64,000 bases of DNA, from assembly GCF_000384475.1 (NCBI RefSeq), contig NZ_ARWB01000001.1:4330123-4394122 (forward strand). Direction: 5' to 3'. The translations under genes were made by a program, and so were the position numbers. Below the pieces are notes generated by a model. That model did no database searches and was not told where the DNA came from. It saw only the letters and a list, made by a program, of their open reading frames with translations. Shown here in pieces: positions 4,763-52,915 of the stretch (positions within the stretch are counted from its first letter, which is position 1; every line of letters begins with the position of its first letter). Source of the stretch: Methylopila sp. M107 (lineage in GTDB: Bacteria > Pseudomonadota > Alphaproteobacteria > Rhizobiales > Methylopilaceae).

Positions 4763-7018
4763 TTATGCTCTGACGCGCGATTTTGTCGGGTCGTAATGCG
4801 GGAAGCCGACCACAGTGGCGGCGATCCGCTTCTGCTGGCCGTCGAGCTTGCCGATCTCGAGCTTCGTCCCGAGCTCGGCGTAGGTCACGTCGAGGCGGGC
4901 GAGCGCGATGGTCTTGCCGAGGATCGGCGAGCGGGTCGCGCTGGTGACGACGCCGATCTGGGCGCGGCCGACATGGACGCAGTCGCCATGGCCGATCGCC
5001 TCGTTGCTCAGCACCTCCAGCCCCACGAGCTTCTTTGACGGCGTCTCGCGGCGGCGCTTCAGGGCCTCCGACCCGACGTAAGGGTCGGTCTTGTCCTTGG
5101 GGACGGAGAAGCCGATGCCTGCCTCGAAAGGGTCGGTCTGATCGCAGAACTCGTAGCCCGAGAAGGCGAGCCCCGCCTCGATGCGCACCATGTCGAGCGC
5201 GAGCAGGCCGAGCGGCTTGATGCCGTGCGGCTCGCCCGCCTGCATGATCGCGTCCCACACTTCCGTAGCGCGGCTCGGATGGCAGAACACCTCGTAACCG
5301 AGCTCGCCCGTATAGCCCGTGCGCGAGACCACGACCGGGATGCCCGAGAGCCTGCCGACCGTGAAGCGGAACCACTTCAGCTCGGCGACCGTCGGCTCGG
5401 CCGGCGGCGTCGCCACGATCCCGTCGAGGATCTCGCGGGATTTCGGACCCTGCACGCCGACATTGTGAAGCTGGTCGGTCGCGGTCTTCACCCAGACCTT
5501 CAGGCCATGCCTGGCCGCAAGCTCCCGCAGGTGGACGCCGCAATAATCCTCGCCGCAGATCCAGCGGAAATTGTCCTGGCCGATGCGGAACACGGTTCCG
5601 TCGTCGATCATGCCGCCGTGCTCGTAGCACATGGCGGTGTAGACCACCTGGTTGACGGCGAGCTTCTTCATGTCGCGCGTGACGGCGAGCTGCATCAGCG
5701 CTTCGGCGTCCGGGCCGATGACCTCGAACTTGCGCAGAGGCGACAGGTCCATGATGGCGGCGCGCTCGCGGCAGGCCCAGTATTCGGCGATGGGCCCCTC
5801 GTCCGAATAGCAGTCGGCGAGCCAGAAGCCGCGATACTCGACGAACTTTCGGGTGAGCGCGGCGGTGCGCGGATGAAAGCCGCTCTCGCGGGTGAGGCGA
5901 GGCTCTGAGTCTGGCGTCATGCGATGCGCGATCCCACGCGAGAAGTTTTCGGACGCGTCATAGACGCGGACATGGATGTCGGTCGGCGACCAGCCATTGG
6001 CCGGGTCGATGTCGTCGGTGCAGGAGGACGAGGCGCAGACGAGGTCGGTCAGCGCCCGGAGCAGCACGTAGTCGCCCGGACGCGACCACGGCTCGTCCAT
6101 GGTGATCTTGTCGTCGGCGCCGACGGTGGTGTTGTAGAAGAAGTTGATCGCAGGCCAGCCGGCCTTCGGCTTGATACCGTAGGGCTGAAGCGCGCGGTTG
6201 AAGTTGTCCGTGCAGTTATCGTGGCCCGGATAGCCCATGTCCTCGTAATATTTCGAGTTGCAGGCGAGCAGGAAGGCGTCGTGCCGGCCGACAGTGTCGC
6301 GCACGATCTCGACCAGCGGCTTCAGCCGCGCGTCGAAATATTTGGAATGGAGGCCCGGGCCGGGATTTGCGGTCGCCATCAGCGTGCGGGTCACGGTGGG
6401 GTCGAGGCCGAACTCCTCGCCCTGCGAGAGCGCGGCGGCGTCGAAGGCCAGGAAGTCGGAGCACTGGCGGCCGTCGACGTCGATGATCTGGATGTAGTCT
6501 CCGGCCTTCACGAGGTACGCCGAGGCGGTGGCGGCGTCGATGCGCAGGTCGAGCTTCGGCGATGCGAGCGGCGCAGGCGCGACGCCCTTGGCGGGCGCCG
6601 AGGTCTCGATCTCGATCTTGAGGTCGGTCGGCGGCGTCTGCTCGTCCGGCGCCATGGCGCCGCCTTCCGGGATCAGGGCCAGCGTGACGGGCGCCTTCGC
6701 CTCGAAGTCGACCGCCGCGCCCGGCGCGCCGTCTTCCGAGGCAATACGAAACCCTTCGAACCGCGCGGGATCGGCGCCGCGCGCGGCGAGCGCCGCGACC
6801 GCCGCCGAATGGCCCTCGGCGCCTTCCGCAAGGGGGGGAAGTGCGGCGGCGCCGAAGGCTCCTTCGGCCGAGGCGAGCAACAGGCCCGCCTGCTGGCCTT
6901 CCGGATCGACGATGCGGCAGCGGTCGCCCGCGGAAAGCTCGAAGACCACGGGCTCGCCGCCGCGCGCGACGAGTTTTGTCACGCGGGTCGGTTCTGAGTT
7001 CGGGCTGCGAGCATCCAT
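4763..7018 (-). CDS. tdm: Trimethylamine N-oxide demethylase (aldolase), DUF1989-GcvT fusion
   Basis: Tdm cleaves TMAO to dimethylamine and formaldehyde, with transfer of the one-carbon unit to tetrahydrofolate. This 751-residue protein has the two-part layout known for Tdm. An N-terminal DUF1989 domain (about residues 15-370) carries cysteines consistent with a zinc site: QCSDF near 185, HDNCTDN near 265 and CASSSC near 325. A C-terminal GcvT-like folate domain runs from about 385 to 751. The ATG at 7018 is the only reasonable start. It is the last gene of the minus-strand methylamine cluster, separated from tmm by a 370-bp repeat-filled gap. A generic aminomethyltransferase is the alternative, but the neighbouring tmm and dmm genes support Tdm. 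Confidence 0.88.
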   Translation of the reverse strand: MDARSPNSEPTRVTKLVARGGEPVVFELSAGDRCRIVDPEGQQAGLLLASAEGAFGAAALPPLAEGAEGHSAAVAALAARGADPARFEGFRIASEDGAPGAAVDFEAKAPVTLALIPEGGAMAPDEQTPPTDLKIEIETSAPAKGVAPAPLASPKLDLRIDAATASAYLVKAGDYIQIIDVDGRQCSDFLAFDAAALSQGEEFGLDPTVTRTLMATANPGPGLHSKYFDARLKPLVEIVRDTVGRHDAFLLACNSKYYEDMGYPGHDNCTDNFNRALQPYGIKPKAGWPAINFFYNTTVGADDKITMDEPWSRPGDYVLLRALTDLVCASSSCTDDIDPANGWSPTDIHVRVYDASENFSRGIAHRMTPDSEPRLTRESGFHPRTAALTRKFVEYRGFWLADCYSDEGPIAEYWACRERAAIMDLSPLRKFEVIGPDAEALMQLAVTRDMKKLAVNQVVYTAMCYEHGGMIDDGTVFRIGQDNFRWICGEDYCGVHLRELAARHGLKVWVKTATDQLHNVGVQGPKSREILDGIVATPPAEPTVAELKWFRFTVGRLSGIPVVVSRTGYTGELGYEVFCHPSRATEVWDAIMQAGEPHGIKPLGLLALDMVRIEAGLAFSGYEFCDQTDPFEAGIGFSVPKDKTDPYVGSEALKRRRETPSKKLVGLEVLSNEAIGHGDCVHVGRAQIGVVTSATRSPILGKTIALARLDVTYAELGTKLEIGKLDGQQKRIAATVVGFPHYDPTKSRVRA

Positions 7019-7073
7019 CGGGGTCTCCCGTTGAGCTTGGCGCCGGCCTCGAAAATCCGGCGCTACGTCGACG

Positions 7074-7287
7074 TCCCCCTCTCCCCTTGTGGGAGAGGGT
7101 AAGGGTGAGGGGTCGCTTCAGGATGAAGCGCGCGCGTGAACGTCGAGCGCCATCCTGAACCGACCCCTCATCCGACCGGCGCGTTCCACGCCGGCCACCT
7201 TCTCCCGCGCTGAAGTCGGATGTTTCCGGCTTCAGCCACTTTAAGTGCCTAACTCGGCAACTGCCGAGTTGGGCGGGGAGAAGGGAA
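7074..7287. repeat. Composite repeat with CCCCTCTCCCC / GGGAGAGGG arms
   Basis: The tmm-tdm gap holds C-rich and G-rich blocks (CCCCCTCTCCCCTTGTGGG, GAGGGTAAGGGTGAGGGG, then CGACCCCTCATCC and GGCGGGGAGAAGG). They form nested imperfect inverted repeats. It is the same kind as the elements at 11386, 27044, 44641, 44810 and 52777. Confidence 0.65.
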
Positions 7288-7295
7288 GGCCTCTT

Positions 7296-7382
7296 CGTCA
7301 TGGTCCGGCTCGACCGGACCATCCACATCGCCGTCGGGTTTGACCTCCGAGATGGGTCCTCCGGTCAAGCCGGAGGACGACG
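7296..7382. repeat. Intergenic palindromic repeat (CGTCATGGTCCGG...CCGGAGGACGACG)
   Basis: Two hairpins, TGGTCCGGCTCGACCGGACCA and TCCTCCGGTCAAGCCGGAGGA-like, lie between outer CGTC and GACG ends just after tmm. It closely resembles the element at 53824. Confidence 0.65.
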
Positions 7383-7387
7383 GCGCG

Positions 7388-8752
7388 CTACTCCGCCGCC
7401 TGGCTCGCCGGCTGGTTGAGGAACGCCTCGAGGCTGTCGTCGAGCGCCTCCATCCATGGCGTGTGGTGGACCGGCGCCATGTTGCCCGTCAGCGTCGAGG
7501 GATAGGAGCGGTTGCGGTAGGTGAGGATGCCCTCGGCCTTGTGGTGCTCCCACTCCTTGAAGAGCTTCGCGCACATGTCGACGTCGAGACGCGGATAGTC
7601 GGTCGCCTCGATCAACTCCCGGACATAGTCAGTCTGAAAGTCGATCATCTGGTCGGCGTTTTCGAGCGCCTCCTCGCGCGACATCCAGCCCTGCCAGTCC
7701 GCCTTCATCGTTGCGGGATCGGGCAGCGCGATGCGGCCGAGGATGACGTCGCGGGCGTACCAGGCCTGCGCGTCGAACATGTTGAAGGTGTAGAACTGGT
7801 CCTGAGCGCCGATGTAGATCAGCTTCGGATTACCCTCGTAGAACACGCCCTTGTAGAGGTTCGGCGGGAACAGCCGGTTGCGGGTCTTCAGGCGCAGCTC
7901 GTCCGACAGAAACGGGTAGTGGTTGAGATAGCCGGTGCAGAAGATGATGGCGTCGACGCCGTCGACAGAGCTGCCGTCCTTGAACGTGCAGGTGTTGCCG
8001 ACGACCTTGGTCAGCAGCGGCTTCTCCTCGAAGCCTTCTGGCCAGTCGAAGCCCATCGGGCGGGTGCGGTAGCTGAAGGTGACGCGCTTCGCGCCGTATT
8101 TGTGGCACTGGGTGCCGATGTCTTCGGCCGAATAGCTCGAGCCGATCATCACCACGTGTTTGCCGGCGAACTCGTCCGCGACGCGGAAGTCATGGGCGTG
8201 CATGACGCGCCCGAGGAACCTGTCGACGCCCTCGAAATACGGGATGTTCGGCGTTGAGAAGTGGCCGTTCGCCACGATGACGTAGTCGAACTCCTCCGAA
8301 AACACCCGGTCGCCGACAAGATCCTTCACGGTGACGGTGAACGTCTCGGTCTCGGCGTCGAATGTGACGCCCTTCACCGCGTGGCTGAACTTGCAGTATT
8401 TGCGGACGCCCGACTTCTCGACGCGGCCGGCGATATAGTCGTGCAGCACCGCGCGCGGCGGGTAGGACGGGATCGGCCGGCCAAAGTGCTCCTCGAAGCC
8501 GTAATCAGCGAATTCGAGGCACTCCTTCGGGCCGTTCGACCAGAGATAGCGGTACATCGAGCCGTGGACGGGCTCGCCGTATTCGTCGAGGCCGGTGCGC
8601 CAAGTGTAGTTCCACAAACCGCCCCAGTTCGACTGCTTCTCGTAGCAGACGACCTCGGGAACCTGCGCGCCCTTCTGGCGGGCGCTCTCGAAGGCGCGGA
8701 GCGCGGCGAGGCCGCTGGGGCCTGCGCCGATGACTGCGATGCGTTGTGTCAC
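7388..8752 (-). CDS. tmm: Trimethylamine monooxygenase (flavin-containing)
   Basis: Tmm oxidises trimethylamine to TMAO with NADPH and O2. The 454-residue protein has an N-terminal FAD-binding [10 protein letters not shown] (residues 8-17), the FMO signature [11 protein letters not shown] (F-x-G-x3-H-x3-F) near residue 178, an NADPH-binding [10 protein letters not shown] near 202, and a CTGY motif near 270. Length and motif order match bacterial Tmm. The ATG at 8752 is unambiguous. It is flanked by dmmD upstream (39 bp) and tdm downstream, which makes TMA the likely substrate among FMO possibilities. Confidence 0.93.
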
Positions 8753-8791
8753 GAAACCCTCCTCGGGTGAGATGCGTCGGGCTGTTGAAGG

Positions 8792-9922
8792 TCAGGCGCG
8801 CTCTTCGAGCGGATGGGTGCGCAGGCGATGCGGATCGTAGAACGGCGTCCGCACGACATGGGCCGTGAACGTGCCGGCCGGCGAGACGACCTCGAAGGTC
8901 GTGCCGATCGCCTTCAGCTCTGGCGGCACGCTGCCGAGCGCGATCGACTTCATCAGGTGGCGGCTGTACGTGGTCGAGTTGACCGTGCCGACCTCCTTGC
9001 CGTCTTTGACGAGCTTGGCGCCCGGTTCGATCGCCTCATGGGCGTCGATCTCGATGCCCACGTTGGCGGAGCGGATCTCGCTCTTGCGCTTCTCGAGCGC
9101 GGCCTTGCCGTTGAAGTCGAGCTTCGTGAGGTCGACGGTCCAGTCGGCGCCGACCTCCCAAGGCGTCTCGTCGCCCTTCGGCATGTCGAACGGGAAGAAC
9201 AGCAGCGCGCCCTCGACGCGGACGATGTCGAGACAGTCCCAGGACGCCGCGCAGATCCCGAACGGCTTGCCTGCCTCCATGATCTTGTCCCACAGGAACG
9301 GGGCGTCGGCGGCGGACGAAAACACCTCGTAGCCGCGCTCCGCCGAATAGCCGCCGCGCGCGATCGAGACCGTCTTGCCGAACAGCACGTTGGGCGCATG
9401 CTCGAAGTACTTCAGCTTCGACAGGTCCTTTTCCGCGTGCGGCGCCAGGATGTCGAGCGCGAGCGGGCCCTGCAGCGACAGGATGTGGACGTCGTCGTCC
9501 TTGGCCCATGTGGACTGTGAGCCGGCGAAGAACCCGTCGATCACGTCTTCGAGGCTGCCGCCGCCATGGGAGAGGCGGAACTCGGTCGGGCCGTCCCGAT
9601 AGACCAGCACGTCGTCGATCAGCGAGCCGTTCTCGTCGACGATGTTGGAAATCGCCGACTGGCCCGCCTTCAGCCCGTCGACGTCGGTGGTCAGCATCTT
9701 GTTGAGGACGGCGACGACGTCGGCGCCGGAGACGTCGATGATCCGCAGACCCGAGACGTCGAACAGCCCCGCTTTCGAGCGGACGATTGCGACCTCGTCA
9801 TAGGCGTCGGTCGAATAATGCTGCGGGATCGGCATGCCGTTCCAGTCGCTGTCGAGCTTGGAGCCGAGCGCCTGATGGATGGCCTGGAGCGCGTTCTTGC
9901 GCGGAAAGTCTTCGGGTCCCAT
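8792..9922 (-). CDS. dmmD: GcvT-like folate protein of the dimethylamine monooxygenase system
   Basis: This 376-residue aminomethyltransferase-family protein (COG0404) lacks the other glycine-cleavage genes around it. The usual GcvT opening is present (YDEVAIVRSKAGLFDVSGL, about 42-60), as is a conserved RGGYSAERGYEVF block near 190. In dmmDABC/HODM systems the GcvT-like subunit binds tetrahydrofolate and is thought to capture formaldehyde released from dimethylamine as methylene-THF; that role is inferred here from family and position. A GGGAA run lies about 11 bases before the ATG at 9922. It sits between dmmC and tmm, with a palindromic repeat in the 185-bp gap to dmmC. Confidence 0.82.
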   Translation of the reverse strand: MGPEDFPRKNALQAIHQALGSKLDSDWNGMPIPQHYSTDAYDEVAIVRSKAGLFDVSGLRIIDVSGADVVAVLNKMLTTDVDGLKAGQSAISNIVDENGSLIDDVLVYRDGPTEFRLSHGGGSLEDVIDGFFAGSQSTWAKDDDVHILSLQGPLALDILAPHAEKDLSKLKYFEHAPNVLFGKTVSIARGGYSAERGYEVFSSAADAPFLWDKIMEAGKPFGICAASWDCLDIVRVEGALLFFPFDMPKGDETPWEVGADWTVDLTKLDFNGKAALEKRKSEIRSANVGIEIDAHEAIEPGAKLVKDGKEVGTVNSTTYSRHLMKSIALGSVPPELKAIGTTFEVVSPAGTFTAHVVRTPFYDPHRLRTHPLEERA

Positions 9923-9985
9923 GGGGCATTTTCCCTTTTTGAGTCCGGCCTTTGGAGACCGTTGAAGGATGTGAAACCAGTGAGG

Positions 9986-10078
9986 CGTCGTCCCCCGGCT
10001 CGTCCGGGGGATCCAGGGTCAAACGTCGAGCGCGGCGTGCCGGAGGTCTGGATGCCCCGGACAAGCCGGGGCATGACG
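9986..10078. repeat. Intergenic palindromic repeat (CGTCCCCCGG...GGGGCATGACG)
   Basis: Hairpins CCCCCGGCTCGTCCGGGGG and GCCCCGGACAAGCCGGGGC-like lie inside the element, between dmmD and dmmC. Confidence 0.7.
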
Positions 10079-10107
10079 TGGGCGCGCCGAAGCGCTCATC
10101 GGTCTCC

Positions 10108-11148
10108 TCAGTCCGGGAAGAACCCGGGGGAAGTCGGCGCGCCGTCGTCGTGCTTGGCCAGCCACGCCACGGTGTCGGCGCGATAGTTCGTGAGGCCCTT
10201 GTAGGTCGCGAGCTCTTCCGGCAGGTCGCGCAGCACGCGATGCAGCCGGCGCCCCCATTTCGGGATCGTCACGAGCTCTTCCATCTTGATGAGGTAGCAG
10301 CGGATCGAGAACACGATGGCGTTCGAGCGCGGCAGCCGCCACAGCGCCTGCAGCTCGACGCGCAGGTGCACCTTGTCGCCCACGTTTTCGGGCGTGACCG
10401 TCGTCCGGTCGATGCCCCACTGATGGTACTTCTCCGGCGACGTATCGAGCCGCGGATTGACCGTCATGGTCCAGTTCAACCGGCGCACGGGCCGTCCCTG
10501 CTGAAGGTTGAGCAGGAACTTCAGCGCCCGGTCGAACACTCCGATGTCATGGGCGAGCGGCACGGGCCCGTGCCACTCCATGAAGTTCATGCCCATGTCG
10601 AAATCGAGCGACCAGTCGGCCTGCGTCGTGACGATGCCGGCGTCCATCCAGAGATTTTCTTGGCGCTGGTCGAGCAGGCAGAAATCGCCCTGGCACTGCC
10701 GGGTGATGTACTCCATCGGCGGATGGGGCAGCGTCGCCGTATCGCCGAAGACGAAGCGCTGGTCGATGCCGAGCGGCCTGTTCACCCAATGCCAGCGATC
10801 GCCGTCGCGGGTGAGCGTGAAATGTTCCGGATAGTGCTTCGCCATCGACTCCATCAGGAGTTCGACGAGGTCCCATTCCGCCGTGATCATGTGCGGCATG
10901 GACTGGCAGCGCAGCGGGTCCTCCTTCAGCACCAGCGCCCGGTCGGCCATCTCGGCGACGTAGTGCTCGTCGATGTCGATCGGGAACTCGGTCGCGGACT
11001 TCACGGGTCCCGGCATGTGCTGCTCGATGTTGACCGCGTACATGTACGCGTCCTTGTCGAACGGGAACGGAAAGCGCTGGATGCCTTCCGGGCTGTTCGA
11101 GAAGGTGAAGTCGTCGCGGAAGGTTTCGGTCTTGAACTGGATGGTCAT
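10108..11148 (-). CDS. dmmC: Dimethylamine monooxygenase haem subunit (DUF3445)
   Basis: This 346-residue protein belongs to the DUF3445 haem-dependent oxidative N-demethylase family, whose PAS-fold domain binds haem and hydroxylates secondary amines. In this cluster the substrate should be dimethylamine, giving monomethylamine and formaldehyde. Recognisable blocks include FPFDKDAYMYAVNIE near the start and WVNRPLGIDQRFVFG mid-protein. I chose the ATG at 11148 (MTIQFKTETF) because GGAGG lies 8 bases upstream; the frame is open to 11355 but that stretch is repeat DNA. Naming follows the order dmmA-B-C-D seen here; some authors call this the alpha subunit. Confidence 0.87.
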   Translation of the reverse strand: MTIQFKTETFRDDFTFSNSPEGIQRFPFPFDKDAYMYAVNIEQHMPGPVKSATEFPIDIDEHYVAEMADRALVLKEDPLRCQSMPHMITAEWDLVELLMESMAKHYPEHFTLTRDGDRWHWVNRPLGIDQRFVFGDTATLPHPPMEYITRQCQGDFCLLDQRQENLWMDAGIVTTQADWSLDFDMGMNFMEWHGPVPLAHDIGVFDRALKFLLNLQQGRPVRRLNWTMTVNPRLDTSPEKYHQWGIDRTTVTPENVGDKVHLRVELQALWRLPRSNAIVFSIRCYLIKMEELVTIPKWGRRLHRVLRDLPEELATYKGLTNYRADTVAWLAKHDDGAPTSPGFFPD

Positions 11149-11264
11149 TTGAGGCCTCCGGCGTTCAGGTCTCGGGTTTTGCGAAAACGACGCAGCTCTC
11201 TTGTCCCGGCCTCGAGCCGGGATCCAGACGCGCCGAAATTTCCTGAAACGGCGCCGCCGCTTCC

Positions 11265-11359
11265 CGTCATGCCCGCGCCTTCGCGCGGGTATCCACGACT
11301 TGGCTGGCGGCGTGCTCGACGAAGGAAGTCGTGGATACCCGGCTGCGCCGGGCATGACG
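11265..11359. repeat. Intergenic palindromic repeat (CGTCATGCCCGCG...GGGCATGACG)
   Basis: The outer arms CGTCATGCCCG and CGGGCATGACG frame an inner inverted pair GTATCCACGACTT / AAGTCGTGGATAC. It lies in the dmmB-dmmC gap. Confidence 0.8.
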
Positions 11360-11385
11360 GCTGGGTGAGCGGCTCGACGCTTCCG

Positions 11386-11523
11386 CCCCCTCCCCCTTGC
11401 GGGGAGGGTAAGGGTGGGGGTGGCGCCGAATTGAGCGCTGCGGCCGCGCGTAGAGCGGCTTTTGCCGAAGCGTCATCTCCTGAACGACCCCCACCCCTTA
11501 CCCCTCCCCACAAGGGGGAGGGG
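11386..11523. repeat. Composite repeat with CCCCCTCCCCC / GGGGGAGGGGG arms
   Basis: The block CCCCCTCCCCCTTGCGGGG followed by GGTAAGGGTGGGGGT is mirrored by ACCCCCACCCCTTACCCCTC and ACAAGGGGGAGGGGG about 60 bases later, giving a long imperfect hairpin in the dmmB-dmmC gap. Confidence 0.75.
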
Positions 11524-11551
11524 GACAAGCGCGAGGTCTCGTAGCGCGCGC

Positions 11552-12514
11552 TCACAGGTCCAGCACCAGTTCGCGGCCCTTCAGCCGCGAGACGCAGATC
11601 ATGATCTTCTTGCCGGATGCGTGCTCGTCCTCGGACAGATAATGGTCCTTGTGGTCGAGCTCGCCGTCGCAGGAGACGACCGCCGTCTCGCACTGCCCGC
11701 AGGCGCCGCCGCGGCACAGGAACGGCGCGTCGACGCCCGCCTCCTCGATCGCCTCAAGCAAGGTCTGGTCGGAGCGGACGTCGGCCGTGATCCCGGCTCG
11801 GCTCAGCACGACCGAGAACGGCTCGCCGCCGCCTCCGCTAAGGAAGCGCTCGGCGTGGAGGTTTTCCTCCGGCCAGCCCGCCTCGGCTCCGCCGTTGAGG
11901 ACCGCGTCGATCATCCCTTCCGGGCCGCAGACGTAAAGATGCGTGCCAAGCGGCTGGTGCTTCAGGATGTCGACCATCACGACGACCTCCTGCGCGTCGT
12001 CGCGATAGAGCTTCAGCCTGTCGCCGTGCAGCGCCTTCAGTTCCTCGACGAAGGCGCCATGGGCGGCCGAGCGCATGGCGTAATGCAGCTCGTACGGCTT
12101 GGCCTGGCGCTTGAGGTCCTCGGCCATGGCGAAGATCGGCGTGATGCCGATGCCGCCCGCGACCAGGATGTGCTTGCGCCCCGTCCGCACGATCGGGAAC
12201 AGGTTGACCGGCATGGCGATCGTGAGCTCCGAGCCGACCGCAACGCGCTCATGCATGAACTTCGAGCCGCCGCGTGAGTTCGCCGTCCTCAGGACGCCGA
12301 TCCGGTAGCTCGAGCCGTCGAGCGCGCGATCGATCAGCGAGTAGGGGTTTTTGATGTGGCGGCCGTCGTCGTTCATTGTGACGATGACGTGGGAGCCCGC
12401 CGAGAAGGCCGGCAGCGGCTCGCCGGAAACGGCCGCGAGCCGGAACCGCTTCACCGTGTCGGTCGCCTGCTCGATCTCGACGACGCGAACCTTCAGCTGG
12501 ACGCCGCCGCTCAT
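11552..12514 (-). CDS. dmmB: Dimethylamine monooxygenase reductase subunit (FMN/NAD(P)/2Fe-2S)
   Basis: This 320-residue phthalate-dioxygenase-reductase-type protein passes electrons from NAD(P)H to the DmmC haem. An N-terminal flavin domain contains NPYSLIDR near residue 76. A nucleotide-binding domain has AGGIGITP near 120 and CGPEGM near 195. The C-terminal plant-type ferredoxin domain has CRGGACGQC plus a later Cys, the C-x4-C-x2-C...C cluster ligands. The ATG at 12514 overlaps the dmmA stop by 4 bp, indicating translational coupling; the longer open frame to 12640 lies wholly in dmmA. Confidence 0.92.
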   Translation of the reverse strand: MSGGVQLKVRVVEIEQATDTVKRFRLAAVSGEPLPAFSAGSHVIVTMNDDGRHIKNPYSLIDRALDGSSYRIGVLRTANSRGGSKFMHERVAVGSELTIAMPVNLFPIVRTGRKHILVAGGIGITPIFAMAEDLKRQAKPYELHYAMRSAAHGAFVEELKALHGDRLKLYRDDAQEVVVMVDILKHQPLGTHLYVCGPEGMIDAVLNGGAEAGWPEENLHAERFLSGGGGEPFSVVLSRAGITADVRSDQTLLEAIEEAGVDAPFLCRGGACGQCETAVVSCDGELDHKDHYLSEDEHASGKKIMICVSRLKGRELVLDL

Positions 12515-13113
12515 GCGTAGAGCTCCTCGGCTGGCGGGACGTCGCCCGGCGCTTCGGCGTCGATCGACACGCCCTGGAAGGCGCCGAGCCGGCGCGAATA
12601 GTGGTCGCGAACCAGAAGCGGCACGCCGCAATGGGCGCAATCAATTGGCGAGACGGTCACGTTCTCCATAAATCCCTTGCAGTGAACGCACTGGACGCGG
12701 CGCGCGAGCGAACCGCGATGCTCGGTGCGGATGGAATAGGGTTCGACGCCGTGCTCGATCCCGGCGGCCACCACCTGCCCGACGAAGCCCTCGACTCCGG
12801 CGGCGTAGAGTCGCGTGCCCATCTGGGCGGTCGCGAGCAGGCCGTTCAGGCGGATGAGCGCGGTCTCGACGGTCGGCATCACATGCAGCGCGTCGGGCTT
12901 CAGGGCCGCGAGCTTGGCGGCGTGGTCCTCGCCGGCGGAGCCGCCGGGCGTGTAGACGACCGTCGTGGCCGCCATCGCGTCGCCGGCCTCGACGAAGGCG
13001 TCGAGCGCGGCCAGCGCGCCTTCGCCTTCGGCGGCCACCAGATGGCGGCGCGCCTTTTCGTCGAAGACGAGGCCTTTGTAGACCGGGCGGCTTTTGATCG
13101 GCGACTCGAGCAT
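12511..13113 (-). CDS. dmmA: Dimethylamine monooxygenase small subunit with zinc ribbon
   Basis: This 200-residue protein matches the DmmA-like family: a ferredoxin-reductase-like N-terminal half (a GTRLYAAGVEGF block near 98) and a C-terminal ribbon with CVHC and CAHC pairs spaced 15 residues apart, likely binding zinc. In DmmABC it is a subunit with an assembly or electron-transfer role that is not fully settled. It is the first dmm gene after the permease (71-bp gap) and overlaps dmmB by 4 bp. The ATG at 13113 gives the full family length. Confidence 0.82.
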   Translation of the reverse strand: MLESPIKSRPVYKGLVFDEKARRHLVAAEGEGALAALDAFVEAGDAMAATTVVYTPGGSAGEDHAAKLAALKPDALHVMPTVETALIRLNGLLATAQMGTRLYAAGVEGFVGQVVAAGIEHGVEPYSIRTEHRGSLARRVQCVHCKGFMENVTVSPIDCAHCGVPLLVRDHYSRRLGAFQGVSIDAEAPGDVPPAEELYA

Positions 13114-13184
13114 TTCTCAACTCATGCTTGGGCGTCGGAAGGGGCCTCGGCGCGGAGCAAATTCCGCGCCGAGGCTGAGGGTCG

Positions 13185-14906
13185 TCAGAGCTTGAAGACC
13201 CAGTTGGCGATCAGCACGGTGGCGACGCCTGCGGCCAGCGTGACGTAGGGCAGAACGCCCGCCTTCCGGGGCATCACGGCGGCGTCGCCGACCTGAAGGT
13301 CTTCCAGCATCTTGGCCGGGAACTTGCCCTTGTCCTGGACGTAGTGCCGGAAGAAGAACACCGGGATGATCAGGGCAGCGGTGATCAGGCCCGCCCACAG
13401 CGCCATCGGGTTCCAGACCTTCGCGCCGGCGCCCATGAAGACGGCGTTCACGAAGGCGAAGAAGACGCCGATCACGATGATGAAGGTCGGGGCCTTGAAC
13501 GGCCGGTCGATATGGCCGCTGTCGATCCGGTGGATCCAGCCGGAGTTGAGGTTCAGGAAGTTGAAGATGATGTAGCCGCAGTTCGACACCGCCAGGATGA
13601 AGAAGAACGAGGTGGCGTCGGCGCAGGCGATGGCGAGCAGCACGAGGTTGACGCAAAGGTCCGTCCACATCGCGTTGGTCGGCGCGCCGTTGTGGTTGAC
13701 GTGGCTGAGATATTTGGGGAGCCAGCCGTCGACCGAGCCCTGGTAGAGCGTGCGCGAAGAACCGGCCATCGCGGTCATCAGGCAGAGCATGAGCGCGAGG
13801 ATCATCAGCATGACCAGCGCGTTCTCGATGATCGGACCGCCGCCGACCATATGGGCGAGCGCCGCCGCGACGCCGGAGCCGTCGACGATCGGCGTCGCCA
13901 GCATGCCGGTGAGGCCGAGCTCGCTCTGGAACGTGAAGGGCACGATCACGAAGATCGCGATGCAGAGCAGGCCCGAATAGAAGATCGCCTTGAACGTGTC
14001 GGTCTTCGGGTCCTTGAACTCGCTCGTGTAGCAGATCGAGGTCTCGAAACCGTAGGTCGACCAGGCGGCGATGAACATGCCGCCCAGCACCAGCGTCCAG
14101 CCCGAGATGTTCCATGCGCCCGGCTCCGGCGCGTAAGCGGCCGCGAGCGGCACGAACGGGGAAAAATTCGACCAGTTGACGCCGTGCTGCAGGAGTGGCG
14201 CGACGCCGACGATCAGCAGCGGGATGATGACGAGCAGGCCGACGAACTTCTGCACCCGCGCTGTCGACAGGATGCCGCGATGCTGGACCGCGAAGGTGCC
14301 GAGCATCAGGAGCGCGCCGACGAAGAAGGCCGAGTTCAGCGAGAACGACACCGGGCCGAGCGAGCCCGAGAACAGCGTCCAGGTGCGGATCGTCGGCGTC
14401 AGCGCCGTGACGGCGGCCGCCGTCTTCTCCGCGTCCGGAATGTTGCCAAGGCCGGCGCCATTGGCGGTGAGCCAGCTCGCGACGGAAGCGGCGTCGGCGC
14501 CGGGGATCGGCGCGATCGCGTTCAGGATGTAAGCGGCGGCGATCGAGCAGCCGAGCGAGAGGACCGGCGTCCAGGCGAACCAGTTGCACCACACCGAGAG
14601 CGGCGCGACGGGTTTTGCGTAGCGCACCCAGGCGGCCGCGCCGTAGATCGACGCGCCGCCGGACTTGTTGGGGAAGAGGCCCGCGATCTCGGCGTAGACG
14701 AAGGACTGCAGGAAGCCCATCAGCATCGAGGCCGCCCAGATCGCGAAGGCGGGCGTTCCGGTCGTGCCGGCGATGCCGCCGATCGAGAACAGCACCAGCG
14801 GCGGCACGCCGCTCGCGACCCAGAAGGCGCCAGTCCACGAAATGCTTCTTCGAAGCTGCGCGGGTTCGCCCCCCGCCACGCTGATGTCCGTCGCCGCGAT
14901 AGTCAT
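13185..14906 (-). CDS. APC-superfamily permease, candidate methylated-amine importer
   Basis: This 573-residue inner-membrane protein has about 12 hydrophobic segments and amino acid/polyamine/organocation features (SWTGAFWVASGVPPLVLFSIGGIAGTTG-like first helix region; FPNKSGGASIYG in the loop after helix 2). Its position as first gene before dmmABCD-tmm-tdm suggests import of trimethylamine or a related amine, where other bacteria use a BCCT-type transporter; the substrate is inferred. Two in-frame ATGs are close together (14912 and 14906). I chose 14906 because GGGGA sits about 6 bases upstream. Upstream lies the long gap shared with the LuxR regulators. Confidence 0.8.
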   Translation of the reverse strand: MTIAATDISVAGGEPAQLRRSISWTGAFWVASGVPPLVLFSIGGIAGTTGTPAFAIWAASMLMGFLQSFVYAEIAGLFPNKSGGASIYGAAAWVRYAKPVAPLSVWCNWFAWTPVLSLGCSIAAAYILNAIAPIPGADAASVASWLTANGAGLGNIPDAEKTAAAVTALTPTIRTWTLFSGSLGPVSFSLNSAFFVGALLMLGTFAVQHRGILSTARVQKFVGLLVIIPLLIVGVAPLLQHGVNWSNFSPFVPLAAAYAPEPGAWNISGWTLVLGGMFIAAWSTYGFETSICYTSEFKDPKTDTFKAIFYSGLLCIAIFVIVPFTFQSELGLTGMLATPIVDGSGVAAALAHMVGGGPIIENALVMLMILALMLCLMTAMAGSSRTLYQGSVDGWLPKYLSHVNHNGAPTNAMWTDLCVNLVLLAIACADATSFFFILAVSNCGYIIFNFLNLNSGWIHRIDSGHIDRPFKAPTFIIVIGVFFAFVNAVFMGAGAKVWNPMALWAGLITAALIIPVFFFRHYVQDKGKFPAKMLEDLQVGDAAVMPRKAGVLPYVTLAAGVATVLIANWVFKL

Positions 14907-15057
14907 TGCCATTCCCCGCTGAAGTATTGACGCGCGAAGCGCCCGAACGCCTGAGCCTGACCCGGATTGCCGTACGACGTTTTCCCCTGACCTCGCCGCG
15001 CCCTGCATTTCAGGGCGACGACGGCGTCAAAGGATGCGCGAATGCTCTCCGGAGCAG

Positions 15058-15069
15058 GATCATATGATC
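15058..15069. promoter_or_regulatory. Perfect 12-bp palindrome, candidate LuxR operator
   Basis: The bases GATCATATGATC are fully self-complementary. They lie about 150 bp upstream of the permease start and 480 bp upstream of the first LuxR-type gene. Assignment as the operator is by position only. Confidence 0.4.
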
Positions 15070-15104
15070 TTGCTATCAAAGCGAAATCTTCGATCTGCAG
15101 AGAT

Positions 15105-15117
15105 ATGCCCATGGCAT
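15105..15117. promoter_or_regulatory. Inverted repeat ATGCC-CAT-GGCAT
   Basis: Five-base arms around a three-base centre lie 36 bp beyond the 15058 palindrome in the same divergent gap. It may be a second regulator site, but this is weak. Confidence 0.25.
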
Positions 15118-15547
15118 GGCCCGGATCGTCTGTGTCGTTTCAACCTGACGGGAATGATGCAGAGATTTTCTTCTATGTCAAAAGTTTTTCTTTTGAATAA
15201 AAAATAGGCGTCATCGCCGAATATTGCGGCGCCCAATGCGCGGAAGTCGAACGGCCACAGACCTCAAGCGTATGCGAGCGCCAATGCTCGCCGCGAGGCG
15301 GCTTTCTTCTAAAACGATGAGTCGGAGGATTGCGCCGCACTGCAGCTCAGCTCCGACCGTCCAGCATCCCTGTCGCGACGTCTTCGCCCGAGCGGCGCGC
15401 GTCTCGATGTTATTATTTGCAACGATGATTGGCCGATCGGCTCTTGCGCGCAATGGTGACGATTGGCGCCACAGTCGTGTCCCGCGCGGCCGATCTGCGG
15501 CCTCGGACGCGCTTTGTGCGTTCCGCGAAAGCACCTAGGCTTCTGGC

Positions 15548-16603
15548 ATGACCCCGACGATCCAGCGGCAAGGCCTGCCCCGCATCGACGCGCCCGACTG
15601 GTACGCGCATGCGGGCGCGGTCGTAACGTCGATCGGCACGCCGTTCTTCCATCGCGAGCTGATCAAACTGCTGGAGGCGAGCATCCGCAGCGACGCGGTC
15701 TGGATCATCCGCTATTCGGGCGAGGCGCCGCCCGACGTCGTCTACACGCACAATGTGTCGGACGCCGCGGAGCGGGTTTATTCCGACCAGTGCGCGGGCG
15801 TCGACCCGTTCTCGATGCGCTGGAAACGCGAGCGCCGGGCCGGCGTGTCGACGCTGGCACGGCTGCGCGACGACAGCGTCGAGTACCTGCTCTACACCAA
15901 GCTTTTCCTGCCGGCAGCCGGCGTCGAGGACGAGCTCGGCGTCTTCTTCCCGGTCACGGCGCACAATTGTTATGCATTCTTCCTCGAGCGCGAGCGCGGG
16001 CTGTTCACGCAAGGCGACGTCGAGCGCGCGGAGCTGATGTATCCGGCGCTCGCCGGCTTTTATCGGGCCCATCTCGGCTGGCTGTTCAACGAGCTGCGCT
16101 ATTCCAACACGCCCGAGACGACCGGCCTGATCAACCGCCCGACGCTGATCCAGGACCGCGCCGGCCAGCAGGTCTACGCCAACGAGACCTGGGGCGCGGC
16201 GGTTCGGGAGACGCCGTCGATCCTGCCCGTGATCGAGGCGCTGACAGGGCGGGGCGCAAGCTCCGTCTCGTTCGACGCGTTCGTGCTGAAATCCGAACTG
16301 CTCGGCGCCGATTTTCCGCTCGCCCCGGGCGGGCGCATGTTCGTCGTCGAACGGCCGGAGTCGTCCTATGCGCGGACAAACGACCACGTCGCCAACATCT
16401 TCCAGATCTTCAGCCCGCGCGAGCGCGACATCCTTGACATGGTCATGCGCGGCAAGACCAACGCCCAGATATCCGGCGAGCTCGACATCAGCGTGGGCGC
16501 CGTGAAGAACTGCAAGATGCGCCTCTACCGCAAGGCGGAGGTGACGAGCGAGCGGGCGCTGGTCGCCAAGTTCACGCCGCTCTACAGGCCGCAGCCGGGA
16601 TGA
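15548..16603 (+). CDS. LuxR-type transcriptional regulator, first of a tandem pair
   Basis: This 351-residue protein ends in a LuxR/FixJ helix-turn-helix (FSPRERDILDMVMRGKTNAQ, about residues 288-307, followed by the recognition helix ISVGAVKNCKMRLYRK). The N-terminal 270 residues show no response-regulator receiver domain; they may be a small-molecule sensor. The ATG at 15548 starts MTPTIQRQG. It is the first gene upstream of the methylamine cluster, divergent to it, and overlaps the next regulator gene by 4 bp. Control of the amine genes is inferred from position. No autoinducer synthase is nearby. Confidence 0.8.
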   Translation: MTPTIQRQGLPRIDAPDWYAHAGAVVTSIGTPFFHRELIKLLEASIRSDAVWIIRYSGEAPPDVVYTHNVSDAAERVYSDQCAGVDPFSMRWKRERRAGVSTLARLRDDSVEYLLYTKLFLPAAGVEDELGVFFPVTAHNCYAFFLERERGLFTQGDVERAELMYPALAGFYRAHLGWLFNELRYSNTPETTGLINRPTLIQDRAGQQVYANETWGAAVRETPSILPVIEALTGRGASSVSFDAFVLKSELLGADFPLAPGGRMFVVERPESSYARTNDHVANIFQIFSPRERDILDMVMRGKTNAQISGELDISVGAVKNCKMRLYRKAEVTSERALVAKFTPLYRPQPG

Positions 16604-17640
16604 GCGCGCCGTCCGACACAGGCCCGATCGGGCTCGCGCAGGAGGCGTGGTTCCGTCTGGTCGGCGAGGTCGCCTCGTCGATCGGGACAGACGGGTTCCA
16701 TCAAAAGCTGGTCGAGCTGTTCGGGGCCACGATCCCGCACAGCGCGAGCTGGATCATCCGCTATTCGCGGGTCGCGCCGCCGGACGTGATCTACACGGCG
16801 AACGTGCCGAGAGACGTCGTCGACTTCTATGTCGCCGAATGCGCGCCGCTCGATCCGTTCTCGGCGCATTGGCGGCTCAACGAGGAGCCGGGCGTCAGGA
16901 CGCTCGCAAGCTTCGCGCCGAAAGCCGGCGCCGCGATCGACCCGAGGCCCTACAGCCGGCTGTTCAAGCCCGCGGCCGAGATCGAGGACGAACTCGGCAT
17001 GTTCTTCTCGACCGTCGGCCACTCCTCGCTCGGCCTGTTTCTGGAGCGCGTCGAGGGGCGCTTCACCGCGGCGGAGGTCCGCCAGGCGAAGCTCGTCTTC
17101 CCGGTGCTCGACGGTTTCCACAAGACGCATATCGGGCGGATCTTTGACCGGCTCCGCTTCGCCGGCGACGCCAATGAGAGCGAGCTGGTGAGCCGCCCGA
17201 CCTTGGTGCGCGACCGGACCGGCCTCGAAATCTTCGCCAACGCCTCCTGGCGCGATGCCGTCGCCGCCGATCCGTCGATCGGGGAGGCCGTCGCCTCAGT
17301 CGTCGACGAGCGCGCCGTCCAGCTCGCCGACCACACGCTCAAGGTCGAGCGCTTCGACCAGTATTTCCCGCTGGCGCCGTCCGGCACGATGTTCGTGCTG
17401 ACGGAGCGAGCCGACGCGCCGGTGTCCGCCGCGCTCGGGCCGGAACTGCTCACGCGCAAGGAGCGCGAGATCTTCGATCTCGTGATGGCCGGCAGCACCA
17501 CCGGTTCGATCGCCCAGGCGCTTAGCATCAGCAAGGGGATGGTGAAGAAGTACCGGCTGCAGATCTACCGCAAGACTGGCGTGGCGTCGGAACGCGCGCT
17601 GGTCCAGAAGTTCAGCGGGCTGTCGCCCGGTGTCGCTTAA
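16600..17640 (+). CDS. LuxR-type transcriptional regulator, second of a tandem pair
   Basis: This 346-residue paralogue of the preceding gene shares long blocks with it (WIIRYS...APPDV, EDELG, SERALV-KF). It ends in a LuxR-type helix-turn-helix starting LTRKEREIFDLVMAGSTTGS near residue 288. Its ATG overlaps the previous stop as ATGA, so the two are co-translated and may act as a heterodimer. The tandem arrangement looks like a gene duplication. The region downstream is a palindromic repeat. Confidence 0.8.
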   Translation: MSAPSDTGPIGLAQEAWFRLVGEVASSIGTDGFHQKLVELFGATIPHSASWIIRYSRVAPPDVIYTANVPRDVVDFYVAECAPLDPFSAHWRLNEEPGVRTLASFAPKAGAAIDPRPYSRLFKPAAEIEDELGMFFSTVGHSSLGLFLERVEGRFTAAEVRQAKLVFPVLDGFHKTHIGRIFDRLRFAGDANESELVSRPTLVRDRTGLEIFANASWRDAVAADPSIGEAVASVVDERAVQLADHTLKVERFDQYFPLAPSGTMFVLTERADAPVSAALGPELLTRKEREIFDLVMAGSTTGSIAQALSISKGMVKKYRLQIYRKTGVASERALVQKFSGLSPGVA

Positions 17641-31251: not shown

Positions 31252-31286
31252 GGCTTGGGGTATAAGGGCATCATGCGGGCCAGCGC

Positions 31287-31380
31287 CGTCATGCCCGCGT
31301 CTTCGCGGGTATCCACGACTTCGGCGTAGCGCTCAACGATCTCAGGAAGTCGTGGATACCCGGCTCCGCCGGGCATGACG
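31287..31380. repeat. Intergenic palindromic repeat (CGTCATGCCCGCG...GGGCATGACG)
   Basis: Outer arms CGTCATGCCCG / CGGGCATGACG frame the inner pair GTATCCACGACTT / AAGTCGTGGATAC. The element is very close to the copies at 11265 and 40222 and lies between convergent ssuA and ssuD. Confidence 0.82.
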
Positions 31381-31435
31381 GCTGAAGCGTCACAGCTGAA
31401 CTTCCAGGGTCTCACCGTTTAGTCGACACCCTTGC

Positions 31436-41959: not shown

Positions 41960-44043
<2,084 letters not shown>

Positions 44044-44640
44044 GGCGCGAGGCGTCCTGATCCTCCCACGCCTTGGCGGGGAAGGGGGCCGGGCGTGGAG
44101 TTCAGTCACCCGGACAGCCTGCATCGTCCTCGCCGCATCTCTGCGCGAGGGTTCAAAACTCAGGGAGGCGGGGACGCCAGGCGGCCGCATCTTAAAACTT
44201 AGAGAACCGGTCGCCCGGCGCCCCACGCACGGCGATTTTTCATCGCTCGAAGGAACCGCGCTCCGACGGCGGGCGACCCGTTGGCCCTTCGGTTTCCCAA
44301 AGGGGTCCGGACCAGTCCCGCCGCGTTACGGCCCACTGAAGGGCGGCCCCGTCATAGTGCAGGGCGGGCGGCCGTCGTTCCTTGGCGTTGTCCGGGCGCC
44401 CTTGACCTCATCGGCCAAAAGCTTCCGGCTTCCGCCGCGAAAAGCCTTCGATCGACGTCCCGGGAGGCTTCAGACCGGTGCTGAAGCCGCGCAGGCGCCG
44501 CCCTCACATCCCGCGCGAACGGCCGGTCCGGACGCGCCTCCCGGCGGGAGGAGGTGAAGGGAGCGTGCGGGAGAGAAGGAATAATGTCAAGGACAAAATA
44601 CCTAGTGCTGCTATTTCCACACCCGCCGCGACGCTGCTGT

Positions 44641-44780
44641 CCCCCTCCCCCTTGCGGGGAGGGGTTAGGGGTGGGGGTCCCTCCGGATAAAGCGCCCCGC
44701 GTCGGCGTAGAGCAGCTTCGCCCAGGAGCTCCGTTCTGAACCACCCCCACCCCTAGCCCCTCCCCGCAAGGGGGAGGGGA
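44641..44780. repeat. Composite repeat with CCCCCTCCCCC / GGGGGAGGGGA arms
   Basis: CCCCCTCCCCCTTGCGGGGA, then GGGGTTAGGGGTGGGGGT, are mirrored by ACCCCCACCCCTAGCCCCTC and CCGCAAGGGGGAGGGG. The copy resembles the 11386 element arm for arm. Confidence 0.8.
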
Positions 44781-44809
44781 ACGAGACAGTGCGGAGAACG
44801 TAGCGCGAG

Positions 44810-44969
44810 CCCGCCCCCTCCACCATGGCTCGCGCCATGGTCCCCCTCCCCCGCGCCGAAGGGCGCAGGGGAGGATCCAGGAGGCGTCGCGGGTCGTGCC
44901 CGGATCCTCCTCCATGCCAAAGGCATGGGGGAGGGGGACCATGCGAAGCATGGTGGAGGGGGCGGGCGC
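44810..44969. repeat. Long inverted repeat with GCCCGCCCCCTCCACCATG arms
   Basis: The left end GCCCGCCCCCTCCACCATGG and the right end CATGGTGGAGGGGGCGGGC are near-perfect complements about 110 bp apart, with an inner pair GGTCCCCCTCCCCC / GGGGGAGGGGGACC. It lies 30 bp from the previous repeat. Confidence 0.8.
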
Positions 44970-45065
44970 AGAGCTCAGCGTCGCCGTGTCGGCCGGCATC
45001 GAGCCCGTTGCCGGATCGGCTCCGCGCGCCAAACCAGTCGCGGTCCGCAACCGGAGCGCCGCGTC

Positions 45066-45743
45066 ATGGGCCCTAAAGCCGCCCCGAACCTCTATGGCCA
45101 CCTGTTCTCCTCCTATACCCAGAAGGCGCTGATCGCCTTCTACGAGAAGGGAGCGGCTTTCGAGTTCCGCGACCTCTCCGAGCGCAGCCCCGACAACGTC
45201 GCGCGCTGGAAGGCGCTGTGGCCGATCGGGCGTTTCCCGGTGCTGGAGGCGGACGGCGAGGTCGTGGTCGAGGCGACATGCGTCATCGAATGGCTCGACG
45301 CACGCGAGCCGACCAGAGCCCCGCTCATCCCCACCGACGCAAGAGCGGCGCGGGAGGCGCGCATGCGCGACCGGATCTTCGACAACTACGTCATGGCGAA
45401 CATGCAGAAACTGGTGTTCGACCGCATCCGCCCCGACGACGCGAAGGACCCGAATGGCGTGGCCGAGGCGCGCGACGCGCTTGATCGGACTTATGACTGG
45501 CTCGACGGCGAGATGGCGTCGCGCGAATGGGCGGCCGGCGAGGCGTTCTCGGTGGCCGACTGCGCCGCCGCGCCGGCGCTGTTCTACGCCGACTGGGTGC
45601 GCCCCTTCGACGGGCGCGAGAACCTCATCGCCTATTTCAGGCGCCTGCGCGACCGGCCGAGCTTCGCGCGCTGCGTCGACGACGCGCGGCCGGCGCGGGC
45701 GCTGTTTCCGGGCGCCGCGCCGAAGGTTCGGTTCGAGGGGTGA
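45066..45743 (+). CDS. Glutathione S-transferase family protein
   Basis: This 225-residue cytosolic protein has a thioredoxin-like N-terminal domain (NLYGHLFSSYTQKALIAFYEKG near residue 8, then GRFPVLEADGEVVVEATCVIEWL near 55, where the P-V-L and E-A/S turn bind glutathione). A helical C-terminal domain includes the FSVADCAAAPALFY motif near 160. The ATG at 45066 starts MGPKAAPN; the longer frame lies in repeat DNA. The substrate is unknown. It is isolated by repeats upstream and a low-GC gene downstream. Confidence 0.82.
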   Translation: MGPKAAPNLYGHLFSSYTQKALIAFYEKGAAFEFRDLSERSPDNVARWKALWPIGRFPVLEADGEVVVEATCVIEWLDAREPTRAPLIPTDARAAREARMRDRIFDNYVMANMQKLVFDRIRPDDAKDPNGVAEARDALDRTYDWLDGEMASREWAAGEAFSVADCAAAPALFYADWVRPFDGRENLIAYFRRLRDRPSFARCVDDARPARALFPGAAPKVRFEG

Positions 45744-45936
45744 ATTAACAGCCAAGCTGGCTTTGAGGTGACGAGGTCACGGCCGCCACGTGGTGTCGAT
45801 CGCCCAGAATTACTCGACGTTCGAAGTTACACTTGAGTCGGATGCTTAATAGATTAGACTTTAAACTTCCATTCAATCGCGTATCTTCTTGCGCTTCAGA
45901 TTTTGCGCGAATGCATTCCAACTTATGGAGGCTGCG

Positions 45937-46209
45937 GTGAAGGAAGTTCTTGAGGTGTTGGTGCCTGGCGCGGTCGCGGCGATGATTGCTTTCTTCGGCC
46001 TGCGTATCGTCGCCAAGCAGATCGACGAAAAGGGATTAAGTGATCAAACTTTGCAAGCCCTTGGGCTTGTTCTATTTCTTCCGTCTCTTGTAGTCATAAG
46101 TGGACTCGGAATGTTTGAGTCGGAGGGACTCGCTGCGTTGCTTGGTGCAGTTGCTGGATATTTGTTCGGAAAGACTTCTAAGGAAGCTTCTACACCGCCA
46201 ACCAGCTGA
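45937..46209 (+). CDS. Small low-GC membrane protein
   Basis: This protein of about 90 residues has hydrophobic segments near 6-27 (VLVPGAVAAMIAFFGLRIVA), 40-57 and 62-80. Base use is markedly poorer in G+C than its neighbours, and the low-GC stretch runs from about 45760 to 46280. I chose the GTG at 45937 because GGAGG lies 5 bases upstream; ATGs at 45925 and 45889 are alternatives. No family is recognised. It looks like a one-gene acquisition between the GST gene and rpsA. Confidence 0.5.
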   Translation: MKEVLEVLVPGAVAAMIAFFGLRIVAKQIDEKGLSDQTLQALGLVLFLPSLVVISGLGMFESEGLAALLGAVAGYLFGKTSKEASTPPTS

Positions 46210-52776: not shown

Positions 52777-52915
52777 CCTTCTCCCCTTGCGGGAGAAGGT
52801 GGCCGGCGGCGCAGCCGGCGGTCGGATGAGGGGTGCGGGCGGCGCGACATCCTGAAAAGACGCCGCCGTCACCCCTCACCCCGACCCTCTCCCTCAAGGG
52901 GAGAGGGGGAAGGGG
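52777..52915. repeat. Composite repeat with CCCTTCTCCCC / GGGGAGAGGG arms
   Basis: CCCTTCTCCCCTTGCGGGAG, GGTCGGATGAGGGGTG and later CACCCCTCACCCCGACC, CCTCAAGGGGAGAGGG form nested inverted repeats within the cysT-cysW gap. Confidence 0.75.

Follow-up and report, generated by a model that had tools for sequence, protein, structure and literature searches.

A divergent LuxR-type gene pair and a conserved dyad as a candidate switch for dimethylamine and trimethylamine use in Methylopila sp. M107

Bacterial use of trimethylamine (TMA) by way of trimethylamine N-oxide (TMAO) and dimethylamine (DMA) to monomethylamine (MMA) is under dedicated control in Ruegeria pomeroyi, where the regulators described are TmoR, of the GntR type, and TmaR, of the AraC type, the latter answering to a catabolite of MMA and often adjoining mgd (PMC13390433). 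A LuxR-type activator has been described for a compound that yields DMA, namely DmfR on plasmid pAMI2 of Paracoccus aminophilus, which acts on dimethylformamidase genes (PMC4543880). In the open-access literature, taken by titles and the starts of abstracts and with most subscription journals outside the scope, no LuxR-type regulator of such methylamine genes was found. Here we analyse a stretch of 64,000 nucleotides of Methylopila sp. M107 (the window; positions 4,330,123-4,394,122 of a 4.45-Mb single-contig genome, within which the coordinates below count), where two LuxR-type genes, luxR1 and luxR2, stand divergent to a methylamine operon with a conserved candidate operator between them.

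The catabolic genes run in the order tmoP-dmmA-dmmB-dmmC-dmmD-tmm-tdm, all on the minus strand from 14906 to 4763, and luxR1-luxR2 (15548-17640, plus strand) point away from them. By its gene families the locus is an aerobic methylamine operon of the usual kind whose enzymes are ordinary and already known; the same enzymes, a GcvT-type dmmD and TmoP are found in the tmm/tdm/dmm/tmoP genes of Methylocella silvestris BL2 and in the dmmDABC genes of P. aminophilus and R. pomeroyi (PMC5520151, PMC4543880). The new part is regulatory and consists of the LuxR pair and its conserved site. We propose, with a probability of roughly 0.68, that the operon is under local control of the LuxR pair, which would act as a switch for DMA/TMA use through the dyad at 15449-15475. 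Such control would be dedicated to the pathway as that by TmaR and TmoR is, but it would use other protein families, and here the LuxR pair adjoins tmoP-dmm. The elements concerned are the following:

15449-15475, minus strand: candidate operator ACTGTGGCGCCAATCGTCACCATTGCG, 72 bp from the luxR1 start and 542 bp from the tmoP start
15548-16603, plus strand: luxR1 (proximal), predicted VqsR-like sensor domain and GerE helix-turn-helix (HTH), GerE 47.1 bits against a cut-off of 23.5
16600-17640, plus strand: luxR2 (distal), overlapping luxR1 by ATGA, GerE 42.9 bits against a cut-off of 23.5
13185-14906, minus strand: tmoP, APC-type TMAO permease family, ATG at 14906 or 14912, NF053774 878 bits against a cut-off of 690

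Relatives of the locus were collected by comparing a TmoP alignment (A1) with GTDB contigs, which gave at least 547, and the best 80 loci were kept, so that TmoP is present in them by construction; their gene content was determined by tblastn with the window's proteins. A scan of the GTDB contigs with LuxR1 alone gave no matches. A LuxR relative occurs in 15 of these 80 loci, as a pair in six (L058, L061, L068, L072, L080, L126) and as a single gene in nine (L071, L073, L075, L077, L078, L084, L100, L101, L135), and the six pairs, the window and plasmid pLVM1 of Methylobacterium DM1 (L055) make up eight complete pair loci. When the luxR1-tmoP intergenic regions of these eight are aligned, one block is kept in all of them, [GA][CT]GCCA-N5-CACCATTGC, and the extended block is a full or partial dyad, CAATGGTG-N8-CACCATTG, with 8-bp arms 8 bp apart. 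Among 14 sites the arms match at all eight positions in two, at seven in five, at six in one and at five in six.

A site matrix was built from nine sites, and in each of the 21 LuxR loci scanned with it the site is the top-scoring place. The nine training loci score 18.0-37.4 bits when each is left out in turn, the window's site reaching 24.6 bits in this way, while no other place in the window exceeds 6.0. Seven held-out loci, with three different site sequences, score 20.2-30.2 bits (L054, L071, L073 and L075, with an identical site, 30.2; L084 and L100, with one site, 25.4; L078, 20.2); the sites of L055, L068 and L181-L183 are training DNA or near-copies. The held-out loci are single-LuxR loci, among them Xanthobacter loci with a trimethylamine-dehydrogenase-type enzyme, while the median best score of 75 LuxR-less loci is 8.7 bits. 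The two arms depart in concert from GGTG/CACC in L071, L084 and L078 (AGTG/CACT and GATG/CATC), as expected for a symmetric dimer. An exact match to GYGCCANNNNNCACCATTGC occurs once in the window's genome, at the candidate operator; a genome-wide pattern with three mismatches was uninformative about a regulon, hitting 123 and 137 places where its reversed control hit 78 and 106. A second pattern, RTGCCANNNNNCACYATTGC, was designed so as not to match the window's site; in the 397 genomes of the order it was found exactly at 21 places, spread over 20 genomes, against 2 for its reversed control. Seven of the 21 (in six genomes) adjoin LuxR and methylamine genes and one (G252) adjoins a distant LuxR gene.

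The site is also oriented. In 18 of 18 loci, near-copies included, its right arm points to a catabolic gene (tmoP, tmm, dmmD or a dehydrogenase gene), and on that side AT-rich positions follow at about 20-28 and 34-41 bp past the arm. The AT peak at 34 was reached in none of 5000 rotations (13 loci, five near-copies left out), whereas the opposite side has no such peak, its highest value being reached in 882 of 5000. The centre of the dyad would lie near -45 if the first AT block is a -10 element and near -60 if the second is. In the window a further element stands in the same intergenic region:

15153-15181, minus strand: TTGACA-N17-ATCATT, promoter-like element toward tmoP, its promoter role putative, the surrounding block conserved in four aligned loci of the window's type

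Several observations weigh against control of the operon from the dyad. The six sites whose arms agree at only five of eight positions include the window's, and single-arm departures, unexpected for a symmetric dimer, occur in L072, L080, L101 and L050. Two LuxR-less loci score 18.7 and 18.0 bits, the latter equal to the leave-one-out score of L126 (18.0), and the LuxR-less L119 scores 29.2; its contig ends about 450 bp before tmoP, and a LuxR gene may have been cut off there. As many as 13 of the 21 RTGCCANNNNNCACYATTGC places lie more than 1.5 kb from any of the window's genes. Moreover, the window's site lies 72 bp from luxR1 against 542 bp from tmoP, and the TTGACA-type element is about 270 bp closer to tmoP, so this site might mainly govern the luxR genes. 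Taken further, these distances would suit a site that serves the autoregulation of luxR1-luxR2 only, with the catabolic operon controlled otherwise. We consider this rather unlikely, because the site lies between tmm and tmoP and away from luxR in Methylorubrum aminovorans (L135), stands about 120 bp before the tmoP start and 3 kb from luxR in L078, precedes the dehydrogenase gene in L084 and L100, and turns its right arm to the catabolic gene in every locus noted above.

The pair might also be a chance neighbour of an operon that answers to general nitrogen or C1 control, as the operon must in congeners without the pair. All seven catabolic genes occur in 19 of the best 80 TmoP relatives, and 12 of the 19 show no LuxR; the window's gene order occurs in 11, nine of them without LuxR (e.g. 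Neorhizobium, Aureimonas, Hyphomicrobium), and 42 hold only tdm and tmoP, the great majority of these being Mesorhizobium. The locus of Methylocella silvestris TVC (L074) has all seven genes, but with dmmABC opposite to tmoP-dmmD-tmm-tdm, and its 21.7 kb yielded no relative of LuxR. In the GTDB genus of the window, both TmoP and Tmm exceed their cut-offs in 13 of 13 genomes (the TmoP match of G076 contains a stop codon), and the pair stands beside tmoP in five; the other eight hold tmoP-dmm without it, at least 8.8 kb upstream of tmoP having been checked, and therefore the pair is dispensable. For these LuxR-less congeners no regulator could be named among 20 scanned open reading frames (ORFs), many of which are probably shadow ORFs. 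The eight congeners and the 12 seven-gene loci without LuxR speak for chance, yet the pair is divergent to tmoP in all eight complete pair loci, in Methylopilaceae and Methylobacteriaceae (seven found via TmoP or being the window itself, one via LuxR), and the same site recurs at single-LuxR loci with other gene orders, which makes mere neighbourhood very unlikely.

Searches that started from LuxR led to the same association with methylamine genes. Every genome or plasmid with a LuxR of at least 43% identity has it clustered with dmm genes, namely the window's own genome, G215, G193 (contig C5), G117, a plasmid of Methylobacterium bullatum and the plasmid of Methylobacterium DM1; LuxR1 matched 72 plasmid records, and the surroundings were viewed for nine. 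A further pair, at L044:388-2489 (G193, contig C7), is cut by the contig end, so that the divergent genes are off the contig, and has a dyad of 22.4 bits upstream (in L040).

The original prediction coupled the regulator pair to the complete pathway from TMA to MMA. The pair does adjoin the operon, but it is not bound to the whole pathway: tmm and tdm are present in only three of the eight complete pair loci (the window, L058 and L061), four (L072, L080, L126 and L055) have the permease and dmm genes without tmm or tdm in the DNA examined, and L068 ends within dmmC. In two genomes with such tmm/tdm-free pair loci, G193 and G301, tmm is located elsewhere. The set linked to LuxR on pLVM1 (L055) lies next to mau genes, and a dimethylformamidase locus is on the same plasmid, so that one would expect DMA as the substrate there and not TMA. 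Relatives of TmoP in L047 and L055, 77-78% identical over the alignment, likewise stand in loci without tmm and tdm, so that their substrate may be DMA. These relatives (L047:1137-2753 and L055:12823-14448, both in dmm-only loci) do not have a stretch of about 35 residues of the window's TmoP in alignment A1, a difference that is possibly a mark of another substrate. A second dmm-type set of pLVM1 (44034-46625, in L056:39426-46625) adjoins gmaS/mgs-type genes that are accompanied by an XRE regulator.

That the regulator goes with the substrate rather than with the enzyme is argued most strongly by Xanthobacter, where LuxR and dyad accompany a trimethylamine-dehydrogenase-type enzyme. L084 and L100, closely related and taken as a single case, have tmoP, dmmD, one LuxR and the dyad, and no dmmABC, tmm or tdm in the DNA examined. 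A protein of 735 residues is encoded 190 bp behind the dyad of L084, its residues 10-734 matching trimethylamine dehydrogenase 1djn with 1269.9 bits, and an ETF gene lies near; L100 carries the same protein with 99% identity.

LuxR1 and LuxR2 are 41% identical. The start of luxR2 lies inside the luxR1 stop (ATGA), this 4-base overlap being found in seven of the eight complete pair loci and replaced by a gap in L058, and therefore the two are probably co-translated. In a tree of 31 proteins all nine proximal copies form one clade (100/99) and all nine distal copies another (99/100); the proximal, distal and single groups need two changes on the tree, the minimum, which was reached by none of 200 shuffles. 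The tree program flagged long branches in four outgroup or single rows and in the luxR2 of L044. Judged from their sequences, LuxR1 and LuxR2 are thus old paralogues, and the two would either have stayed together from before the divergence of the Methylopilaceae and Methylobacteriaceae copies or have been transferred together. In both proteins GerE alone exceeds its Pfam cut-off, with LuxR1 additionally matching Sigma70_r4_2 below cut-off, so that the DNA-binding domain is a GerE HTH and not the GntR or AraC domain of TmoR and TmaR. On this point the expectation that the regulator class would differ from the marine one agrees with the regulators known from R. pomeroyi (PMC13390433).

The sensor half could be assigned by structure prediction. 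The predicted LuxR structure has a mean pLDDT of 82.1 and a pTM of 0.61, and its N-terminal domain best matches the ligand domain of VqsR of Pseudomonas aeruginosa (Foldseek E 7.4e-9; 5xhx, Z 18.5 over 163 residues, rmsd 2.6), followed by RhlR, CepR2, SdiA, LasR and phytochrome GAF domains. The predicted fold is thus apparently shared with VqsR at a sequence identity of 20%, and the comparison covers the sensor domain only; here about 100 residues separate that domain (to about 185) from the HTH (from about 287). VqsR is not known to respond to acyl-homoserine lactones. Since the modelled sensor half has the LuxR-class ligand-domain fold of acyl-homoserine-lactone receptors, and since one Autoind_synth-type gene exists in the genome (C1:1251-1622, outside the window), the pair could be thought to couple methylamine use to cell density as a quorum-sensing circuit. 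We hold this to be extremely unlikely: the Pfam autoinducer-binding domain was not matched at E up to 0.001, and the close LuxR family follows methylamine genes. That gene is the genome's one Autoind_synth match, and no luxI partner was found nearby in this genome, the one searched. Kinship with DmfR is unsupported too, insofar as the LuxR beside the dimethylformamidase genes of pLVM1, a stand-in and not DmfR itself, has no BLASTP similarity to LuxR1 or LuxR2.

For local control by the pair, we infer binding, effector and sign as follows. LuxR1 and LuxR2, each with a VqsR-like sensor (about residues 15-180) and a C-terminal HTH, would bind the dyad as homo- or heterodimers, and the bound pair would switch transcription toward tmoP, most likely by activation, and perhaps that of luxR1-luxR2 too. 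The effector would most economically be DMA, or TMA, because these compounds are common to the close-family loci whichever enzymes are used. TmoP would import TMAO or a related methylamine, Tmm would form TMAO and Tdm DMA from it, DmmABC would lead on to MMA with DmmD loading formaldehyde on tetrahydrofolate, and MMA would pass to GmaS and MgsABC encoded elsewhere.

The genes that would be switched together with tmoP are these:

12511-13113, minus strand: dmmA, PF22290 and PF22289, NF041259 111.7 bits against a cut-off of 60 (domain cut-off)
11552-12514, minus strand: dmmB, FNR-type reductase with a 2Fe-2S domain (Fer2) at the C-terminus, PF00175, PF00111, PF22290
10108-11148, minus strand: dmmC, haem-type N-demethylase subunit (HODM_asu-like), PF11927 239.9 bits
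8792-9922, minus strand: dmmD, GcvT-type tetrahydrofolate-binding protein, PF01571, PF08669
7388-8752, minus strand: tmm, trimethylamine monooxygenase (FMO-like), GTG start, NF058570 818.3 bits against a cut-off of 675
4763-7018, minus strand: tdm, trimethylamine N-oxide demethylase, DUF1989, GCV_T and GCV_T_C, NF053776 1280.9 bits against a cut-off of 1100

The starts of tmoP, dmmB and dmmC are ATG codons picked to fit relatives, the mechanical ORFs being too long at their 5' ends. Tmm, Tdm and TmoP pass curated NCBIfam equivalog cut-offs, and the gene content for TMA to MMA with a TMAO-type permease, like the shared direction and the divergent pair, is where the original prediction had put it. 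Tmm also matches solved bacterial FMO/Tmm structures, residues 13-750 of Tdm match the solved TMAO demethylase 9q59 with 892 bits, and residues 1-335 of the 346 of DmmC match the solved haem-dependent oxidative N-demethylase 5lte with 492.5 bits; that the Tdm-like or DmmC-like protein might belong to a family with another substrate had been allowed for, and the family and structure matches do not bear this out. DmmA, the FNR/2Fe-2S reductase, the haem subunit and the GcvT protein are all present and make up the dimethylamine monooxygenase gene set; no model named DmmB, DmmC or DmmD was matched in the NCBIfam search of the window's proteins, and the conversion of DMA to MMA by DmmABC and DmmD is a function predicted by family. 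Within the operon long gaps lie at 7019-7387, 9923-10107 and 11149-11551, where the relative L061 has shorter ones; the first and third contain inverted repeats and stretches that recur in the window (e.g. 31286-31384, 44638-44779, 52789-52910). In Chenggangzhangella methanolivorans the match to dmmB (L058:12203-13257) is split in two, as a frameshift or a misassembly would cause.

The locus had also been called a self-contained methylamine island with the MMA genes outside it. The latter is correct, and therefore the former is not: gmaS (647.6 bits, cut-off 469.6) is at contig position 1,890,960, about 2 Mb from the cluster, behind three ORFs that resemble mgsA, mgsB and mgsC (the third by its match to a glutamate-synthase domain, the other two on visual inspection). 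As TmoP and Tmm occur throughout the genus, the TMA-pathway enzymes look like a trait of the genus and not an island. One soxB and one soxA-type gene over cut-offs at about 3.51 Mb (L015) may encode N-methylglutamate dehydrogenase or sarcosine oxidase. There was no match to mauA in the genome, in a search that was equally silent in control genomes and so does not show absence.

The regulator and its site may reach beyond the methylamine loci. In G252 the site comes immediately after a distant LuxR gene (about 30% identity) and falls within the opening codons of a Rieske oxygenase gene when its longest ORF is taken. The matched part of this oxygenase sets in at residue 62, after the site, and among solved structures carnitine monooxygenase is its nearest relative (279.7 bits). 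Among LuxR relatives at about 22-33% identity whose surroundings were viewed, the neighbours include a choline-sulfatase (L053), choline/betaine-type ABC transporter genes (L050, L052, L217), an FMO-SDR set (L217, L225), agmatinase-type ureohydrolases with urea- or branched-chain-type ABC transporters (L218, L219, L223) and amidases (L222, L224, L226, L227), the amidases and ureohydrolases fitting methylamines less well. Out of 16 arm positions, L039 has 16, L024 and L037 have 15, L025 has 14, L225 has 14 three times, and L020, L222, L223 and L224 have 13; the other 15 examined have 10-12, and LuxR-less loci have up to 13 (35 loci). As a lead, the DNA code may be older than the methylamine role. 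In two genomes (L217, L225) the distant LuxR has several dyads on its flanks, and the SDR, FMO-like and choline-type ABC genes close to them may belong to an uncharacterised amine pathway. Dyads were seen as well beside the distant LuxRs of L218, L219 and L223 with their ureohydrolase (agmatinase-like) and ABC transporter genes, where, speculatively, dimethylguanidine-like substrates would release DMA.

A tentative generalisation, to which we would give slightly less than even odds, is that LuxR-type proteins with a VqsR-like sensor form a family sensing methylated and quaternary amines in Alphaproteobacteria, with one DNA code (CAATGGTG-N8-CACCATTG) and changing enzymes (Tmm/Tdm/Dmm oxygenases, Dmm alone, trimethylamine dehydrogenase or a carnitine-monooxygenase-like Rieske oxygenase), and that since an old duplication it has been an obligate heteromeric pair in Methylopilaceae and some Methylobacteriaceae. 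The published regulators that we found for the pathway are the GntR and AraC types of marine Ruegeria, beside which the present pair would be a third candidate system, for other methylotrophs, and one that offers a defined site, a pair of regulator genes and an effector that can be tested. The site could serve in a DMA/TMA biosensor and, because regulator and site seem to persist when one set of enzymes replaces another, it could be used to find unknown amine-degrading genes.

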